Origin: a virus
Reading direction: 5' to 3' (one strand)
DNA length: 27,940 nucleotides
IMG/VR virus record: IMGVR_UViG_3300047666_000477
Span: 1-27,940 of that record
The translations under genes and the position numbers were made by a program. Under the pieces are notes generated by a model, which saw only the letters and a list, made by a program, of their open reading frames with translations, had not been told where the DNA came from and ran no database searches. Shown here piece by piece: positions 19,840 through 27,940 of the stretch (position 1 is the first letter of the stretch; each line of letters starts with the position of its first letter).

Positions 19840-20711
19840 GTCATGCCCTCCGCTTCCATAATCGCGCGGCCTATTAGTTCGGGGATTTGCGGGACGACGG
19901 CGTTGCCTAATCCTTTAAGTCGGTCCACCCGCTGGGGAACCCCATTAGCCACTCGACCCACGTCGGGTTCAATGCTCCATTCTCTAGCGACACGGACTGC
20001 CCCAAGGATACTTGCTTGCCTATTGCTAGTCGGCGTTGCACTGACGGGTTGCTCAAGTTTCCCCTGTCCCTGTTGTCGCTGGCTTGCGGCGTCGGCCACA
20101 AACTCCGCGCCACCACGCTTTCCAGATTTGGAAACTTGTCGTTTACTCGGTTGCCTATGTTCTCCGCTGCCATTGCGCTGCAACTGCGTGGGGTAGGCAA
20201 TAATCCAGACCCTTTCGCGACGATGGGGAGCGCCCACGGCTGCCGCAGGTATGTTTTCCCATTCCGCATCATACCCGCACTCGGCCAAGTCTCCGAGAAT
20301 TGAGCCAAACCATCCCCCTCGTTGTTCACTTGGGCCACTAAGCAACGCTGCGACGTTCTCCACGATGACGTAGCGGGGTGCCAATTCGCCAATAAGTCGG
20401 ACGATTTCGGACCAAAGGCCGCTGCGGGTGCCTTCCCCAATGCCTGCTTGCCTTCCAGCAACGCTAATGTCTTGGCACGGGAATCCCCCTGTAATGACAT
20501 CAACGGAAATTCCGTCGCGTCTAAGAATGTCGCCTGTGAGTTTGGTAACGTCTTCATAGCAAGGCACCTCCGGCCAATGTTTTGCAAGCACCTTGCGCGG
20601 GAATGGTTCAATTTCGCAGAACGCCACTGTTTCAAACCCGCCTGCGCGATCAAGGCCAAGGCTAAAGCCCCCGATTCCGCTGAACAGGTCAAGGACTTTT
20701 AGCTTGGTCAT
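19836..20711 (-). CDS. DNA cytosine-5 methyltransferase
   Basis: 291 residues. Motif I DLFSGIGGFS (8-17), catalytic GGFPCQDIS with Cys79, ENV at 118-120, RRERVWI (164-170), and GLGNAVVPQ near 267-275. Residues about 175-265 form the target-recognition region. The start at 20711 is chosen because GGAGGTGAC lies immediately upstream and it overlaps the ERF stop by ATGA; an upstream in-frame ATG is an artefact of the ERF region. No cognate restriction enzyme is seen, so it is a solitary enzyme, probably an anti-restriction or epigenetic modifier of phage DNA. Confidence 0.93.
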   Translation of the reverse strand: MTKLKVLDLFSGIGGFSLGLDRAGGFETVAFCEIEPFPRKVLAKHWPEVPCYEDVTKLTGDILRRDGISVDVITGGFPCQDISVAGRQAGIGEGTRSGLWSEIVRLIGELAPRYVIVENVAALLSGPSEQRGGWFGSILGDLAECGYDAEWENIPAAAVGAPHRRERVWIIAYPTQLQRNGSGEHRQPSKRQVSKSGKRGGAEFVADAASQRQQGQGKLEQPVSATPTSNRQASILGAVRVAREWSIEPDVGRVANGVPQRVDRLKGLGNAVVPQIPELIGRAIMEAEGMT

Positions 20712-21301
20712 GTCACCTCCGCCAGTTCGCCCTTGCGCTTTTCCTTTGCAGCAATGACGCGCTTGTCTGCGCTTACGGCTTTTTCGTTTCTGGCAAGTTC
20801 GCCCCAATATTCTCCAAGACCTCCAAGGGTGGTTTCTGTTTCAATCATGCGGATAGCTGCCGCTGTTGCCGCTTGGTGCAAGGCGGGGTCTACGCGGCTG
20901 TGTTCAATGCTGTCGTGGTCCGCGTCGTCGCCTGTCTCCAAGCCAAGCGCCTTAAGCAGCGCATACTTGACCGCGTAGGATTGCGCTTTTCCTGGCCCCT
21001 TGTCCTGCGTGTCAATGCCATGCCCGCAGCTTTCCACGTCAATGAAGTCTTGCGGGTCGTCAATGTTGGCAAAACGCACAGTCATATTGCATTCGGTCCG
21101 GTTGCCGTTCTGCGCGGTGTCGCATCGGATAGGGTAGTAAATTACGCCATTGGCAAGCAACGCGGGCCGAACCTTGGCAGTTACCTTGTCGTGGGAAACA
21201 ATCTTGTATTGCATCCCCTGTTTGGTTTCCTTCTGAATATAGGTGACTTCGCGCATAACTGCGGCCATGCGCTGGTGCAGGTTCAAAATTGGGTCGTTCA
21301 T
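20708..21301 (-). CDS. erf: ERF family single-strand annealing protein
   Basis: 197 residues. The core is IDTQDKGPGKAQSYAVKY (about 96-113) followed by ALLKALGLETGDDAD (114-128), a close fit to the ERF superfamily signature ('D.DKG.gKA.TYA.KY.Ll..f.i.t.dd.D'). The N-terminal half (MREVTYIQKETKQGMQYKIV, VRPALLANGVIYYP) also fits. It anneals complementary single strands during phage recombination. Together with SSB, NinB and nucleases it makes the phage's recombination module. ATGA overlap with the upstream small gene. Confidence 0.9.
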   Translation of the reverse strand: MNDPILNLHQRMAAVMREVTYIQKETKQGMQYKIVSHDKVTAKVRPALLANGVIYYPIRCDTAQNGNRTECNMTVRFANIDDPQDFIDVESCGHGIDTQDKGPGKAQSYAVKYALLKALGLETGDDADHDSIEHSRVDPALHQAATAAAIRMIETETTLGGLGEYWGELARNEKAVSADKRVIAAKEKRKGELAEVT

Positions 21302-22056: not shown

Positions 22057-22470
22057 TTAGAAGGGGATTTCGTCGGAATCAATTCCATCGCTTGGCCCAT
22101 TATAAGACCCGCCCCCAGCGCCCGCAAGTGACTGCCCGCCCGATCCATAGCCGCCCTGGTCGCCTGACTGCCCGCCGCCGTCCGCCTTGCTTTGCAGCGT
22201 CACGTCAGACACGTTGACCGTGAGGTAGGTCTTGCCGTCGTGTTCACGCTTAGACAGTTCACCCGCAACGGTAATCTTGCCGCCCTTCTGGATGTATTGC
22301 GCAACTTTTTCCCCGCGCTGGCCCCACCAATTGCAATCGAACCAGATGGTTGTTTTTTTGTCGCCCCATCCGTCGTCTACTGCGACCGTCCAGCCTGTAA
22401 CCTTGCCTTGACCGGCCGTGCGGACTTCTGCGCTCTTGCCGATGTTTCCGGCGATTGTGATATTTTTCAT
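22057..22470 (-). CDS. ssb: Single-stranded DNA-binding protein
   Basis: 137 residues from MKNITIAGNIGKSAEVRT. The OB-fold begins with 'itiaGniGk..EvR', has DKKTTIWFDCNWWGQRGEKV and VAQYIQKGGKITVAGELSKR, then a glycine-rich linker and the acidic tip DSDEIPF, the segment by which SSB recruits partner proteins. The start is at 22470 (AGGAAAGC upstream); an earlier in-frame start is weaker. Coats ssDNA in replication and with ERF/NinB in recombination. Confidence 0.95.
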   Translation of the reverse strand: MKNITIAGNIGKSAEVRTAGQGKVTGWTVAVDDGWGDKKTTIWFDCNWWGQRGEKVAQYIQKGGKITVAGELSKREHDGKTYLTVNVSDVTLQSKADGGGQSGDQGGYGSGGQSLAGAGGGSYNGPSDGIDSDEIPF

Positions 22471-22471
22471 G

Positions 22472-22645
22472 CTATTTGCTTTCCTGTTTTCTGTTTGGCA
22501 TTGTGTATATTGCGCTCCATGAACCTGCAATCGCGCCTAAAAACATTCCTGAATCAAGCAGGTACGGCTGGCCTACCAACCCCAGTATCAAACTGCCGAA
22601 AATCCAAATTGCCGAAACAATTAGCATCCATGTAAAATGTTTCAT
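22472..22645 (-). CDS. Small two-helix membrane protein
   Basis: 57 residues from MKHFTWMLIVSAIWIFGSLI. Two hydrophobic segments, about 5-23 (TWMLIVSAIWIFGSLILGL) and 32-47 (LLDSGMFLGAIAGSWSA), then a basic C-terminus (MPNRKQESK). The start at 22645 overlaps the GapR-like stop (TAATG). Function unknown; the charge layout does not suggest a specific family. Confidence 0.6.
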   Translation of the reverse strand: MKHFTWMLIVSAIWIFGSLILGLVGQPYLLDSGMFLGAIAGSWSAIYTMPNRKQESK

Positions 22646-22893
22646 TACATACCAAGTGCTTCTTTGTAGGTATCCAAGATACATTCCTCGTTTGCGATGT
22701 CGTCGCTGTCGCGCTTGCGCAGTGCGATAATCTTGCGCATCAGGGCGGTGTCATAGCCACGGCCCTTGGCTTCGGCCATCACTTCTTTGGTTGCGTCTGC
22801 GATGTCGGCCTTTTCAGCATCCAGCCGTTCCACCCGTTCAATGAATTGGCGCAGTTCGTCGGCTGTGACGCGGTATGTTGTGTTGTCTGTCAT
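22645..22893 (-). CDS. gapR: GapR-like DNA-binding protein (DUF2312)
   Basis: 82 residues. ELRQFIERVERLDAEKADIA followed by DATKEVMAEAKGRGYDTALM, then RKIIALRKRDSDDIANEECI and LDTYKEALGM: this is the alphaproteobacterial GapR/DUF2312 pattern almost over its whole length ('lrqfierierLe.eK..ia.dikdvyaEAKg.GfD.k.lrkiirlRk.d......Ee..ldtY..alGm'). Cellular GapR binds overtwisted DNA ahead of forks and stimulates topoisomerases; a phage copy could do the same for phage replication or interfere with the host protein. Not a pseudogene: reading frame is full length. Confidence 0.92.
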   Translation of the reverse strand: MTDNTTYRVTADELRQFIERVERLDAEKADIADATKEVMAEAKGRGYDTALMRKIIALRKRDSDDIANEECILDTYKEALGM

Positions 22894-22911: not shown

Positions 22912-23106
22912 TTATTCGTAGTTTGAGTTGATAATTTCGCCGCCCGCGTGAACAACACCGCACTGAAAAGCGTGCTTCATCACGTTGCGGATTATATCAT
23001 GGAAAAGAACTTCGTTGCCAGCCGCAGCCTTTAAGCCAAGGTGGGTATCCATTGCACGGTCTTTGATAAACTCGTCAAGGCTTTCGTAGTCATATTTTGC
23101 TGTCAT
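22912..23106 (-). CDS. Hypothetical 64-aa protein
   Basis: Starts MTAKYDYESLDEFIKDRAMD. Mostly helical with an aromatic/histidine-rich middle (NEVLFHDIIRNVMKHAFQCG). Recurrent leader GAAGGGCCAAGACC precedes the ATG. It sits between DnaA-IV-like and GapR-like genes. Not recognised. Confidence 0.6.
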   Translation of the reverse strand: MTAKYDYESLDEFIKDRAMDTHLGLKAAAGNEVLFHDIIRNVMKHAFQCGVVHAGGEIINSNYE

Positions 23107-23160: not shown

Positions 23161-23481
23161 TTAGACATAGCGTTCTCCTTGGTTTCTGTTGGTTGTAAAC
23201 GCGATTGCGTTCCAGTCGATGCACGCAACACATTCGATTGCGGCAACTTCCGCACTTATATCATAATGCGCCACCCTTGCAAGAGAAGATGTAACCGTCG
23301 TGTGGTCCCTGCGAATGATGCGCCCTATTTGTGATTTGGAATCGCCCGTCCACTTGTCGGCTAGGAAGCAATACACTTGGCGCGGGCGCACGTCTTCGGG
23401 CAAGCGTGAGTATCCGCCCATAGCCTCTACGGTTGTACCGTAGTGTTCGGCTGTTGCTTCTGCGATGTCTTGGAGATTCAT
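23161..23481 (-). CDS. Stand-alone DnaA domain IV-like protein
   Basis: 106 residues. Around 31-70: VRPRQVYCFLADKWTGDSKS, then QIGRIIRRDHTTVTSSLARV. RRDHTTV at 57-63 is the DnaA signature turn of domain IV, which recognises DnaA boxes, preceded by the helix pattern 'RqvycflA.k....S...IG.i.r'. The AAA+ domain is absent. Known parallels are chromosomal DnaA domain IV and small phage or plasmid proteins with it. It overlaps the 61-aa gene by ATGA. Likely binds DnaA boxes of phage or host origin; competitor or recruiter of host DnaA is open. Confidence 0.85.
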   Translation of the reverse strand: MNLQDIAEATAEHYGTTVEAMGGYSRLPEDVRPRQVYCFLADKWTGDSKSQIGRIIRRDHTTVTSSLARVAHYDISAEVAAIECVACIDWNAIAFTTNRNQGERYV

Positions 23482-23663
23482 GGGGTTTCCTTTCGGGCAA
23501 TCGTGCGCCAGTCTGTATCTGGTGATTTATTAGATGCGGATCTAATTTGAGCGCCAACGCTGCTGTCAATTCTGCGGTCCGCCTCATCGGCTTTACGTTT
23601 TAGCCTTGGGGTTTGAAAGATGTCAGCGATCCACCGCTCTGTTGTTTTGCGCTTTTTTATCAC
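23478..23663 (-). CDS. Hypothetical basic 61-aa protein
   Basis: Starts MIKKRKTTERWIADIFQTPR. Basic N-terminal half (PRLKRKADEADRRIDSSVG) and C-terminal DTDWRTIARKETP. It overlaps both neighbours by ATGA, with the DnaA-IV-like gene downstream. Not recognised. Confidence 0.6.
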   Translation of the reverse strand: MIKKRKTTERWIADIFQTPRLKRKADEADRRIDSSVGAQIRSASNKSPDTDWRTIARKETP

Positions 23664-24154
23664 AGCACCTTTCCCGTGTTAAAGCCTGCCATGATAGCGT
23701 CTGCCCGTGCCTTCATATCCGCATCAGGTGCAACGCGCGTGACTGTCTGCGCAGGCAGCTTAGGCAACGGGTTGCGCCTAATTTCAGCCTTGCCCCGTGT
23801 CTCCTTTAAGATTGCCAAGATATGTCCAGGGTTGGGCCGCTTGCTTGGGTTGCCGTCTTGGAACTTGCGCAGTGCGTAAATAATCTGCGGTTGATGCCAA
23901 TCCTCCAATCGGTCAGCCCATTCGGCCAGCGCTGCCGCGTCAATCTCGTCACCTTCCCGCGCATCCCAATAGCCACCATTCGCCATGAACACCTTTACAT
24001 CAAAAGCAATCTTCTGTCGGTGTGCGTCTAGCTGTTCCGGCGAAAGCGACCGCGCGTGCTGTGGCGTCACTGTTGGAAGTGTTGCCGTTAGAATTGCGGG
24101 TAGTTGTGCGTTTCTGTCCAAAATACCAGTCCTCCTTGATTGTCTGCCAGCCAT
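23660..24154 (-). CDS. Replication-organiser-like protein, in-frame overlap with upstream gene
   Basis: 164 residues from ATG 24154, or 153 from TTG 24121. The latter is supported by a perfect AAGGAGG (24131-24137) eight bases ahead, the former only by AAGAG. Core: YALRKFQDGNPSKRPNPGHI followed by LAILKETRGKAE; the earlier AEWADRLEDWHQPQIIYALR fits phage helicase-loader or replication-initiator proteins of alphaproteobacterial prophages ('l..w...l......l..Al..w......+rP.PgdI...l.e.'). About 120-155 bases overlap the 3' end of the gene at 24000-24347 in a different frame. Confidence 0.7.
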   Translation of the reverse strand: MAGRQSRRTGILDRNAQLPAILTATLPTVTPQHARSLSPEQLDAHRQKIAFDVKVFMANGGYWDAREGDEIDAAALAEWADRLEDWHQPQIIYALRKFQDGNPSKRPNPGHILAILKETRGKAEIRRNPLPKLPAQTVTRVAPDADMKARADAIMAGFNTGKVL

Positions 24155-24347
24155 GCTCTTGAGCCATGTCTAGCGCTTCTGTGGCGTCACCGCCGTTCTC
24201 ATTGATGCTGCGCAGTGTCTTTGCAATCATCAGCGCCCCACGCTCTGACAGTGGCGCTCGTTTGTGCTTCTTGCGGTATGCGATGAAGCTGTCAACGGCG
24301 TCACTGTCTGCGTGGTGGCTTAGAATGTTAGCTGGGGTTTCAATCAT
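24000..24347 (-). CDS. Replication protein C-terminal-like small protein
   Basis: 115 residues. APLSERGALMIAKTLRSINE, then NGGDATEALDMAQEHGWQTI and KEDWYF form the helical C-terminal piece ('aP.t..a...ia+kL..i...GgD...aLd.a.e.gW.ti..dWy') seen at the end of phage replication initiators (lambda O / helicase-loader class). After DWYF the sequence turns low complexity and basic (TTTRNSNGNTSNSDATARAV), in the region overlapping the next gene. TGA/ATG overlap with the upstream small gene. Confidence 0.7.
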   Translation of the reverse strand: MIETPANILSHHADSDAVDSFIAYRKKHKRAPLSERGALMIAKTLRSINENGGDATEALDMAQEHGWQTIKEDWYFGQKRTTTRNSNGNTSNSDATARAVAFAGTARRTPTEDCF

Positions 24348-24507
24348 CCCCAGCCCCTCGTGATGCGTATCGGATCAAACTAGCCGCGTATTGCGGGTCG
24401 CTCATTAGAACCCGCGTTGCTGCCTCCGCCTTGGCCTTTGCTGCCTTGAACTTGTCGTATTCAGCCTCAGACAATGCAATCCGCATGTGTTTCCTATGTT
24501 CAGTCAT
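24340..24507 (-). CDS. Hypothetical 55-aa helical protein
   Basis: MTEHRKHMRIALSEAEYDKF, then KAAKAKAEAATRVLMSDPQY. Strongly helical with a RHH- or toxin-antitoxin-antitoxin-like size, but no specific motif. It overlaps the DGQHR gene by 8 bases and its downstream neighbour by 8 bases. The usual Shine-Dalgarno is weak (GGGGATTTTTAACA), so translation is probably coupled. Confidence 0.6.
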   Translation of the reverse strand: MTEHRKHMRIALSEAEYDKFKAAKAKAEAATRVLMSDPQYAASLIRYASRGAGDD

Positions 24508-25303
24508 TGTTAAAAATCCCCAACTCCCAAGGGTTTTTTCCTACCTTGCGAACCTTTTTCAAATCGTGGCCCGCGCTGTATGCCTTTATAAAGTTCAAAA
24601 CAATGCGATATGCTTCCAGCTTATTGCGCGGCGTCGCCGAAATTTGGCCCTCCATAAGCCAATTCCTAACGCGAATAATCATCATATCCTCTGGGCCGTA
24701 TGGCATACCAGTCACCAAAACACGGCAAAACCTTTGCAATTTAACAACTGGAATTTCGTAAAATGCAACGGCAACCGCACCGCGCACTGCGGCGTTGCCA
24801 ACTCCGCTTTTAGCCGCGCCCGTGTTTTCGGTGGCAAAGTAGATTCCGTCACTCATTTCTGCAATCTTTTCAGCCGTGGCGGTTGCTGTCATTGCCCGAA
24901 TGTCTGCGGTTTCCGCATGGCGCACCATACGCAAGATAGCAACCTGCGCAGAAATGTATTTGCTTGATTCAACCATGCCCCCAATGACAAGCGCATCGGT
25001 TAGCTTGCGGGCGCGGCCCTGATCAATTGCGGCACCGTCTACCCGCGACAAACCAGTCGCAACAAACATTTCAACAGGCTTTTTAGCTTGAACGACGGCG
25101 GATAGGCGGTGCTGCCCATCGGCCAAGATGCCGTCTTCGTAAAACGCGATGCAGTTTTGGTGCGTGTTGCGCCACGTTCCGTCCGTAATCTCGGCGGCGT
25201 ATACGTTGACCTTGCCCCGTGAGATAGAACGGTTATTTTCATTCAGCGTTTCAAGCCAAATTCCAGCCATAGACGGCGTTACGTTTACTCGTGTCATTTC
25301 CAT
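24500..25303 (-). CDS. DGQHR-motif protein, ParB/sulfiredoxin-like fold
   Basis: 267 residues from MEMTRVNVTPSMAGIWLETL. DGQHRL (about 85-90 in the 25303 start) follows TDGTWRNTHQNCIAFYEDG; the full pattern 'y..eM..G.W......i.f...G.l.DGQHRl.A......pv.m.v..gl.......iD.GraR...d.l' is the common phage ParB-like family annotated for plasmid partition relatives. The start at 25303 is chosen because AAGGAC lies upstream and the family begins here; a longer version to 25390 reads through the promoter and dyad. Role in early control or DNA metabolism is inferred. Confidence 0.75.
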   Translation of the reverse strand: MEMTRVNVTPSMAGIWLETLNENNRSISRGKVNVYAAEITDGTWRNTHQNCIAFYEDGILADGQHRLSAVVQAKKPVEMFVATGLSRVDGAAIDQGRARKLTDALVIGGMVESSKYISAQVAILRMVRHAETADIRAMTATATAEKIAEMSDGIYFATENTGAAKSGVGNAAVRGAVAVAFYEIPVVKLQRFCRVLVTGMPYGPEDMMIIRVRNWLMEGQISATPRNKLEAYRIVLNFIKAYSAGHDLKKVRKVGKNPWELGIFNND

Positions 25304-25339
25304 GTTATAAGTCCTTATGGTTTGCGTGGTTGCATGACC

Positions 25340-25368
25340 ATAAAACATCAATGCCGTACCCGTGTCAA
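25340..25368 (-). promoter_or_regulatory. Strong leftward early promoter
   Basis: TTGACA (25363-25368 on the complement), an exact 17-base spacer and TTTTAT (25340-25345). This is the best sigma-70-type promoter in the window. Expected start near 25333, about 30 bases before the DGQHR start codon. It overlaps the 30-bp dyad described separately. Confidence 0.65.
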
Positions 25369-25380
25369 CAGGTGCGGCAT
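25351..25380. promoter_or_regulatory. 30-bp dyad over the early promoter, possible operator or rightward terminator
   Basis: ATGCCGTACC and GGTGCGGCAT, the two outer arms of a 30-base near-palindrome, match at 10 positions per arm (9 exact plus one G-T), and the next pair (GT/AC) also fits. On the rightward strand it is followed by a run of T, so it can also be read as an intrinsic terminator that would stop rightward RNA antisense to the DGQHR gene. As an operator it covers the -35 box and much of the spacer of the leftward promoter. Confidence 0.55.
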
Positions 25381-25401
25381 TTTTTGTCATCAACTCTTTT
25401 G

Positions 25402-25648
25402 TTACAGTTTCCAGTGGTTAGACATAGCCCGACACCCGTTGCTGCCCCCGATATACAGAGCAACACCTAACGCCTCCTGATCTGTTTCCGTGCGATGCCG
25501 TTTGACGATGGCCAGCCGCTGCCCGCTGGGTTTTATCCAGCCCCGCGCCTTAGCGGTCCCCGATCTAGCCGGTGGGTTTGTATTCGCACTTCTCGCGCAG
25601 CCTAGTTAGGACCGGATTGCGCAGGGACGGGTGATGGCCCCAGATCAT
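25402..25648 (-). pseudogene. Frameshifted remnant of a small gene
   Basis: Leftward frame from ATG 25648 reads MIWGHHPSLRNPVLTRLREK, CEYKPTG and stops at 25565-25567. In a different frame downstream, without a start codon, WIKPSGQRLAIVKRHRTETD continues EALGVALYIGGSNGCRAMSN and stops at 25402-25404. Both pieces look coding, so the simplest explanation is one small gene broken by a frameshift near 25540-25570. A real two-gene arrangement or a chance open frame remain possible. No family recognised. Confidence 0.3.
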
Positions 25649-25682
25649 ATCTCATTGCTTAGAGTGCATAGAGCAAAACTAC

Positions 25683-25703
25683 GTCGGTTTGTTGTAAACC
25701 GTC
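25683..25703. promoter_or_regulatory. 17-bp operator-like palindrome
   Basis: CGGTTT (25685-25690) and AAACCG (25696-25701) are perfect inverted repeats with a 5-base centre, flanked by one further matched pair (G25683/C25703). It lies next to TTGACG, a possible -35 on the leftward strand (about 25701-25706), so it may be a repressor or Cro-type site, although a matching -10 box is poor. Confidence 0.4.
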
Positions 25704-25723
25704 AAAAATCAGGAGGGTTCTAG

Positions 25724-25752
25724 TTGCAATATGCCCGCTTGTGCGGTATGTT
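25724..25752 (+). promoter_or_regulatory. Candidate promoter for a rightward small RNA
   Basis: TTGCAA (25724-25729), 17-base spacer and TATGTT (25747-25752). The predicted start, about 25758-25760, coincides with the first base of the first hairpin of the candidate RNA. Each hexamer matches consensus at four of six positions. Confidence 0.4.
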
Positions 25753-25757
25753 TGCGA

Positions 25758-25834
25758 CAGATGCGCGATGACCCTTCCCAAGGTCGTGCATCTCAGGCGG
25801 CGCTTGAGGTTAGTCCCTCGCGTCGCCGCTTTTT
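25758..25834 (+). ncRNA. Candidate ~76-nt small RNA
   Basis: Hairpin 1: AGATGC (25759-25764) pairs with GCATCT (25788-25793), with GACC/GGTC inside. Hairpin 2: GCGGCG (25797-25802) pairs with CGCCGC (25824-25829), with GAGG/CCTC inside, followed by TTTTT (25830-25834). Promoter, two stable hairpins and a U-run in this order is the usual layout of a bacterial small RNA. No open frame in this piece has support. Expression is unproved; the identity of any target is unknown. Confidence 0.4.
25797..25834 (+). terminator. Rho-independent terminator (first of a tandem pair)
   Basis: Stem GCGGCG...GAGG...CCTC...CGCCGC with a loop of six, followed by TTTTT. Acts on rightward transcripts. It forms the 3' end of the candidate small RNA. 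Confidence 0.65.
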
Positions 25835-25862
25835 ACACTGTAGACAATTTTCTAAGCAAAGG

Positions 25863-25896
25863 CAACCCCCAGCGTTAATCTGCTGGGGGTTGTTTG
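25863..25896 (+). terminator. Second terminator, 11-bp perfect stem, probably bidirectional
   Basis: CAACCCCCAGC (25863-25873) and GCTGGGGGTTG (25882-25892) pair exactly around an 8-base loop, with TTTGTT on the rightward side. On the leftward strand the stem follows the stop of the HTH gene and is trailed only by CCTTTGCTT, so it may end both rightward RNA and the operon from 27226. Confidence 0.6.
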
Positions 25897-27348: not shown

Positions 27349-27375
27349 GAGGCATAAGCAACCAAGGATACGACC

Positions 27376-27495
27376 ATGATGGAATTTTTAGAATTTACGT
27401 TTCAGTCCTTTTGGCACTGGGCAGGCGTAGTAATTTTGGCATCGGCATTCGGGTCAGCAATTGGCGCAAGCCTTTTAGCAATCCGAAGCCGTTAA
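27376..27495 (+). CDS. Tiny membrane protein
   Basis: 39 residues from MMEFLEFTFQSFWHWAGVVI. One hydrophobic helix (about 16-36, GVVILASAFGSAIGASLLAI) with a basic end (RSR). AAGGA lies 7 bases before the ATG, with the same ACGACC spacer seen before the next gene. First gene of the rightward operon. Tiny membrane proteins in such early operons are often host-takeover factors, but nothing specific is visible. Confidence 0.6.
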   Translation: MMEFLEFTFQSFWHWAGVVILASAFGSAIGASLLAIRSR

Positions 27496-27514
27496 TCCAA
27501 CCAAGGAGACGACC

Positions 27515-27715
27515 ATGACCGACGCAGAACAAGATGCCGCCGACGACGCACAACAAATCCAATGGGCTAGAGCCGACGACGCAGCACGCAAGGCCGCAAC
27601 AGACGCACACTTCCCAGACTTTGACATATACGCCGAGGAAATGTGTGACCCACGTCACAGCCTCCGAAAATGGCACGACGATGTTGTGCGCATCCCCGCA
27701 GCGAATAAAGGATAA
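27515..27715 (+). CDS. Hypothetical acidic 66-aa protein
   Basis: MTDAEQDAADDAQQIQWARA start. Acidic N-terminal half, then a hydrophilic C-terminus (MCDPRHSLRKWHDDVVRIPA). AAGGAGACGACC precedes the ATG. Not recognised. Confidence 0.65.
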   Translation: MTDAEQDAADDAQQIQWARADDAARKAATDAHFPDFDIYAEEMCDPRHSLRKWHDDVVRIPAANKG

Positions 27716-27719
27716 GACC

Positions 27720-27940
27720 ATGAACAACGACTCAAACAACGACCTGGCCCGATATCACGGGTTCCCGCCAGTTTTATCTTGTGAAGATTATGAAGAAATG
27801 ACAGGTACAGAGCGCAAAAAATGGCAGGATTCAATGATTGAACTTCTTGACGGTATTGATGAAGCGTTTGCGCCACACAAGCCAACGCCAACAATCCCGC
27901 AGATGGAAGACCGGCACCAACAAGCCATACTCAGGGAAAA
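27720..27940 (+). CDS. Hypothetical protein, cut by right window edge
   Basis: First 73 codons present: MNNDSNNDLARYHGFPPVLS, then EDYEEMTGTERKKWQDSMIE. AAAGGATAAGACC precedes the ATG, identical to the leader of several leftward genes. Not recognised; the end lies outside the window. Confidence 0.6.
   Translation, partial: MNNDSNNDLARYHGFPPVLSCEDYEEMTGTERKKWQDSMIELLDGIDEAFAPHKPTPTIPQMEDRHQQAILRE

Follow-up and report, generated by a model that had tools for sequence, protein, structure and literature searches.

The minus-strand gene at 23161..23481 of the window, that is, of the entire 27,940-base stretch of the IMG/VR virus record IMGVR_UViG_3300047666_000477 analyzed here, encodes a lone DnaA domain IV (hereafter DnaA-IV), which, we judge with somewhat better than even confidence, acts as a stand-alone DNA-binding subunit of DnaA type within the machinery that initiates the phage's own replication. 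The 106-aa product, translated from an ATG start, consists of this domain and a short extra tail. Its residues 4-69 align with positions 2-68 of the 69-position Pfam profile Bac_DnaA_C (PF08299), i.e. nearly the full length, at 56.4 bits (cut-off 31.5; E=3e-15), and this is the only match to the profile in the whole record. A phmmer search against the PDB recovered the DnaA DNA-binding domains of M. tuberculosis (3PVP; 6.6e-06) and E. coli (1J1V; 0.0038), and the NCBIfam DnaA model TIGR00362 is matched by its C-terminal part alone (positions 347-418 of 437), far below the full-length cut-off. An AlphaFold2 model built from 16 sequences (mean pLDDT 84) superimposes in VIA-align on 3PVP with a Z-score of 15.5 (1.5 A over 91 residues) and on 1J1V with 14.8 (1.5 A over 88 residues), the first non-DnaA row scoring 6.6. 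Homology search and structural comparison both place the protein in the DnaA family rather than in another HTH family, and the original prediction of a domain IV without the AAA+ ATPase, which had pointed to an RRDHTTV signature (residues 57-63), is borne out.

The main contact residues are kept: seven of the eight compared positions are identical to E. coli DnaA (R399, R407, Q408, D433, H434, T435 and T436), and the eighth, K443, is an R. Among these, R407, Q408, D433, H434 and T436 are DNA contacts in the crystal structure. Equivalents of R399 and D433 are found in all 30 domains compared, cellular and phage; that of H434 is an N in the divergent family member L010 and, by its translation, in L038. 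The DNA contacts named for DnaA in PMC9638019 are R399, S400, T435, R442 and K443, and S400 and R442 are replaced in DnaA-IV by L27 and A68, respectively, in the phmmer alignment. We infer that the protein binds DNA; going by its fold and main contact residues, it would read a DnaA-box-like or a diverged site.

With cellular DnaA the protein thus shares the fold, a Pfam score above the cut-off and the main contact residues, but it lacks domains I-III, carries the extra tail and is only about 32% identical to the domain IV of Rhodobacterales (Paracoccus) DnaA, which for its part has 72% identity to the cellular DnaA of L016. There is no AAA+ domain in the 106 residues, nor room for one, and no AAA+ partner is encoded in the window or listed for OANV2 (Octadecabacter Antarctic DB virus 2), an annotated relative with a complete genome of 39,241 bp. 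The record is probably a fragment of a virus genome, and hence for this virus the absence of a partner is established for the window alone. ATP-driven oligomerization and DnaA-style DNA opening would be impossible for the lone protein.

Its close relatives form a family comprising nine IMG/VR loci, two further loci from an alignment-based search (L037 and L038) and gp52 of OANV2. The latter is 89% identical over 101 residues, lies in a matching gene neighborhood and is annotated as a 'replication initiator protein'. OANV2 belongs to the podoviruses, and its Octadecabacter host is in culture (PMC9239159); in a text search, the main text of that paper contains neither 'DnaA' nor 'replication initiator'. 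The two viruses differ in their late regions: a match in OANV2 was found for one of the 14 window genes tested, and the head and tail genes are largely unrelated. Hence, the replication region is common to otherwise different phages. The DnaA-IV gene is under purifying selection, with dN/dS of about 0.07-0.21 in seven pairs, and is intact in 13/13 family contigs. Its small size and many unconserved neighbors might suggest a decaying or chance ORF devoid of function; the dN/dS values and the intact reading frames make this extremely improbable. Scans of bacterial genome contigs recovered no relative of the family, and the domain tree, in which 5 of 27 inner branches are well supported, does not settle the deep branching and is compatible with a host DnaA origin or another one.

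The gene is embedded in a single-strand cluster, with all genes on the minus strand. Upstream, in order, are a phrog_5931 protein of unknown function (24500..25393; E=2.3e-41), a 55-aa gene, a small protein similar to the C-terminal region of an O-like initiator (24000..24347; phrog_678 E=1.1e-9, positions 221-306 of 346), a 164-aa protein (23660..24154) and a 61-aa gene of no family, which overlaps the start of the DnaA-IV gene (23478..23663). Downstream, a 64-aa gene of no family fills the interval to GapR (22912..23106) and is followed by the GapR (DUF2312) family protein itself (22645..22893; 82 aa, PF10073 E=7e-32), a 70-aa gene and a single-strand DNA-binding protein, SSB (22057..22530; PF00436 E=7e-13, phrog_44); farther on are an ERF single-strand annealing protein (20708..21301; PF04404 E=4.7e-17) and a cytosine methylase. 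The true start of the SSB is probably near 22470, because the ORF opens at a TTG and the match begins at about residue 21. The GapR-like neighbor named in the original prediction is thus confirmed, with a score below the NCBIfam GapR equivalog cut-off and above a subfamily cut-off. The 164-aa protein, 29% identical to the gp50 region of OANV2, is a possible, unproven helicase loader: gp50 weakly resembles SPP1 G39P (PF11417 E=0.11, below the cut-off), and a fold search with the window protein (model pLDDT 64) gave no significant match. The order in OANV2 is comparable: a DUF1376 primosomal protein, the G39P-like protein, a small gene, DnaA-IV, four genes, GapR, a small gene and SSB. An SSB was matched by tblastn in 9/10 family loci.

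The lambda O/P-type and the SPP1 G38P/G39P/G40P initiation systems divide the labor between an origin binder and a helicase loader. A similar division could operate here, with the difference that the DNA-binding domain is of the DnaA type and that the roles are deduced from gene order only: DnaA-IV would recognize the site, the O-like or DUF1376 initiator, the putative loader and SSB would open the DNA and load DnaB, and GapR would act with the host gyrase in phage initiation.

A bare DNA-binding domain can act at promoters, and we consider it rather unlikely, if worth keeping in view, that DnaA-IV is a phage transcription regulator akin to GafA, the R. capsulatus activator of the gene transfer agent (GTA), which has a DnaA-like N-terminal DNA-binding domain. 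GafA requires this domain for GTA promoter activation, and Hyphomicrobiales encode the DnaA-like part in a small gene of its own (PMC9638019; PMC6363796); both are small alphaproteobacterial DnaA-like DNA-binding units like the one reported here. However, Pfam detected no DUF6456 or sigma-like partner, fused or adjacent, among 17 early-region proteins; the R399 and T435 positions, where DnaA-IV keeps R and T, are E and S in GafA (PMC9638019); and the genomic context is one of replication.

This context recurs well beyond the family. tblastn searches of the phage collection recovered lone DnaA-IV genes from isolates whose hosts are Rhizobium, Bradyrhizobium, Pelagibacter, Polaribacter, Tenacibaculum, Leeuwenhoekiella, Microcystis and Pseudanabaena; the annotated phages among them belong to hosts of three phyla, namely Alphaproteobacteria, Bacteroidota and cyanobacteria. 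Like the window gene, those of the pelagiphages and of the Rhizobium, Polaribacter, Tenacibaculum and cyanobacterial phages encode a Bac_DnaA_C-type domain in 78-199 aa (stop-to-stop) and lie mostly in replication clusters; they differ in that their domains are just 17-32% identical to that of the window gene. In 11 of the 13 annotated phages examined, OANV2 included, a replication gene is found within 2 kb: a DUF1376 or O-like initiator, a replisome organiser, a DnaC-like loader or a DNA polymerase I. The remaining two are pelagiphages with no annotated replication gene adjoining DnaA-IV. This sample left out other annotated matches, e.g. RHph_I65, RHph_I72, HTVC100P, P12002S and Mae-JY35. 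Given their spread across phages, and that DnaA is listed among the proteins common to all HTVC010P-related genomes compared (PMC6811365), such lone domains represent a known, if little studied, type of phage protein; no tested function of a lone phage domain IV was found in the literature searched. Five fecal 'phage' records (H2, H5, H6, H8 and H9) were rejected as relatives, as they encode DnaA proteins of 427-479 aa in bacterial-looking DNA, and were kept solely as cellular DnaA samples. Other DnaA-matching records filed as phages (H17-H21, H23-H24, H26-H27 and H37-H38) may likewise hold host bacterial DNA. The phrog_5931 protein also adjoins a lone DnaA-IV in the Microcystis phage Mvi-Yong1342-1 (L026 6344-7213; E=5.7e-57), so that this gene pair spans a Microcystis phage and one of alphaproteobacterial type.

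With replication genes close by both here and in 11/13 phages, the phage's own replication is a simpler target than that of the host. For the same reason the proposal that DnaA-IV and GapR are two genes aimed at host chromosome control finds no support. In its mechanistic form this alternative holds that DnaA-IV occupies or titrates the DnaA boxes of the host oriC, with the result that initiation is blocked or redirected and DnaB and gyrase are freed for the phage. We regard it as unlikely, albeit compatible with several observations: the seven contact residues are kept and K443 is an R; a prophage product, YfdR, can act on DnaA (PMC4776307); and the phage DNA is without box clusters, so that a canonical site, were it read at all, would be one in the host. 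Against it, a self-directed role accounts equally well or better for the position in a replication cluster and the recurrence over three host phyla, and with so low an identity to the Paracoccus domain IV an identical specificity cannot be assumed.

The search for a target in the phage DNA bears on both readings. For the relaxed DnaA box TTWTNCACA, the window has two copies (2.5 expected) and the complete OANV2 has one (3.5 expected), and no convincing cluster was seen in 22 loci. The same scan recovered the E. coli oriC as a cluster of 4 sites in 500 bp, but it found zero exact boxes across the 8 kb surrounding a dnaA gene of Paracoccus; hence, it is weak evidence in this clade, where a clade-specific consensus could be missed. 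To that extent a DnaA-box origin in the phage DNA, and with it the suggested recruitment of host DnaA through canonical boxes, is unsupported. No iteron array above shuffles was detected in OANV2 or in the window early region. Inside the O-like initiator gene of the family members L008 (6808-6960) and L037 (3235-3390), a stretch of 150 bp holds seven AACAC-type repeats, which form two groups with a spacing of mostly about 11 bases and are likely to be the origin iterons of these phages; the array belongs to L008 and L037, and was rejected as one of the window's own. Its location inside a complete O-like initiator gene suggests that in these phages the O-like protein recognizes a site of its own, and DnaA-IV may therefore be dispensable for origin recognition. 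The chance-level, unclustered boxes and the lack of window iterons count, weakly, against a role in the phage's own initiation; also counted against it are the replaced S400 and R442, the loss of H434 in L010 and L038, the two pelagiphages noted above and the many GapR loci devoid of DnaA-IV described next.

Within the family, GapR is encoded on the same strand downstream of DnaA-IV in 13/13 contigs. Two versions occupy this one slot, with 80-100% identity to the window protein in six loci and 43-44% in four (tblastn, 10 loci), which suggests a retained role. Outside the family, the two genes co-occur in about nine locus groups, namely MW202613, ppBjS10J-1, ppBeUSDA76-2, L056, L074, L093, RHph_N28_2 (about 6 kb apart), the L066/L067/L070 group and L089 (about 4.6 kb apart); the terminase and portal genes of L056 are related to those of the window (54% and 57%). 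In raw counts, DnaA-IV is present in 7/70 non-family GapR loci (about 5 lineages) and absent from 63/70, and non-family loci found via DnaA-IV itself have GapR in 4/14, within the stretch examined; no GapR was found in the loci from pelagiphages, Bacteroidota phages or cyanophages. This recurrence of the pairing in other phages, as raw counts with no host-matched background, is suggestive of, and does not prove, a real association. GapR by itself is frequent among phages, occurring in 155 records of the collection, although a 2025 paper reports GapR in a phage genome as a first case (PMC12185513).

The tail of the DnaA-IV gene shows an unusual constraint at codons 71-100 (23182..23271, minus strand). 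Synonymous differences among eight aligned members amount to 0.062 in codons 71-100, compared with 0.145 in codons 1-20 and 0.342 in codons 21-70; in 20,000 codon permutations the tail block never reached so low a value. Between L009 and L010 the tail DNA is almost identical though the proteins are about 60% identical. Two tail patterns searched in IMG/VR are each found in 10 contigs, as far as identified only those of the family and in this gene alone, and contig L045 starts within the tail. RNA structure was rejected as the cause (five folds, z -0.92 to 0.37), as were overlapping reading frames, these being closed in OANV2 and L010 in an alignment judged by eye. It is possible that the tail is an embedded cis-acting DNA element, or that it reflects recombination, with phages exchanging DNA at conserved ends. 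In the own-initiation reading the tail may hold a partner contact, its DNA a cis signal, or both. In a more specific version, a DnaA cut down to its DNA-reading domain would be paired with phage helicase-loading proteins and GapR in a recurrent DnaA-IV/GapR/SSB cassette, its site lying inside the tail of its own gene as the lambda origin lies inside gene O; we accord this split initiator little credence. The tails of L009, L010, L037 and L038 carry an extra diverged copy of a WNxxxF motif, which looks like the addition of a second tail.

The window is of marine phage source, and lone DnaA-IV genes are spread over phages of at least three bacterial phyla. They raise the question of whether the DNA-reading domain of DnaA can alone serve a replication start, and why it should have GapR as a companion. 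Both the role of the domain and the GapR pairing can be tested, as a cultured pair exists, OANV2 and Octadecabacter IceBac 430, whose phage encodes the 89% identical protein.

Upstream of the phrog_5931 gene is a 500-base stretch without a clear gene (25394-25896), which ends in a terminator-like hairpin common to relatives; its part at 25405-25660 gave no signal of structured RNA (z 0.31) and no Rfam match. A start-associated repeat of about CAACAAAGGATAAGACCATGA is found directly before start codons in the window (27359-27379, 27498-27518 and 27703-27723) and also in OANV2 (L011 36337, 36557 and 38393). It resembles the ribosome-site repeats of other phage groups.
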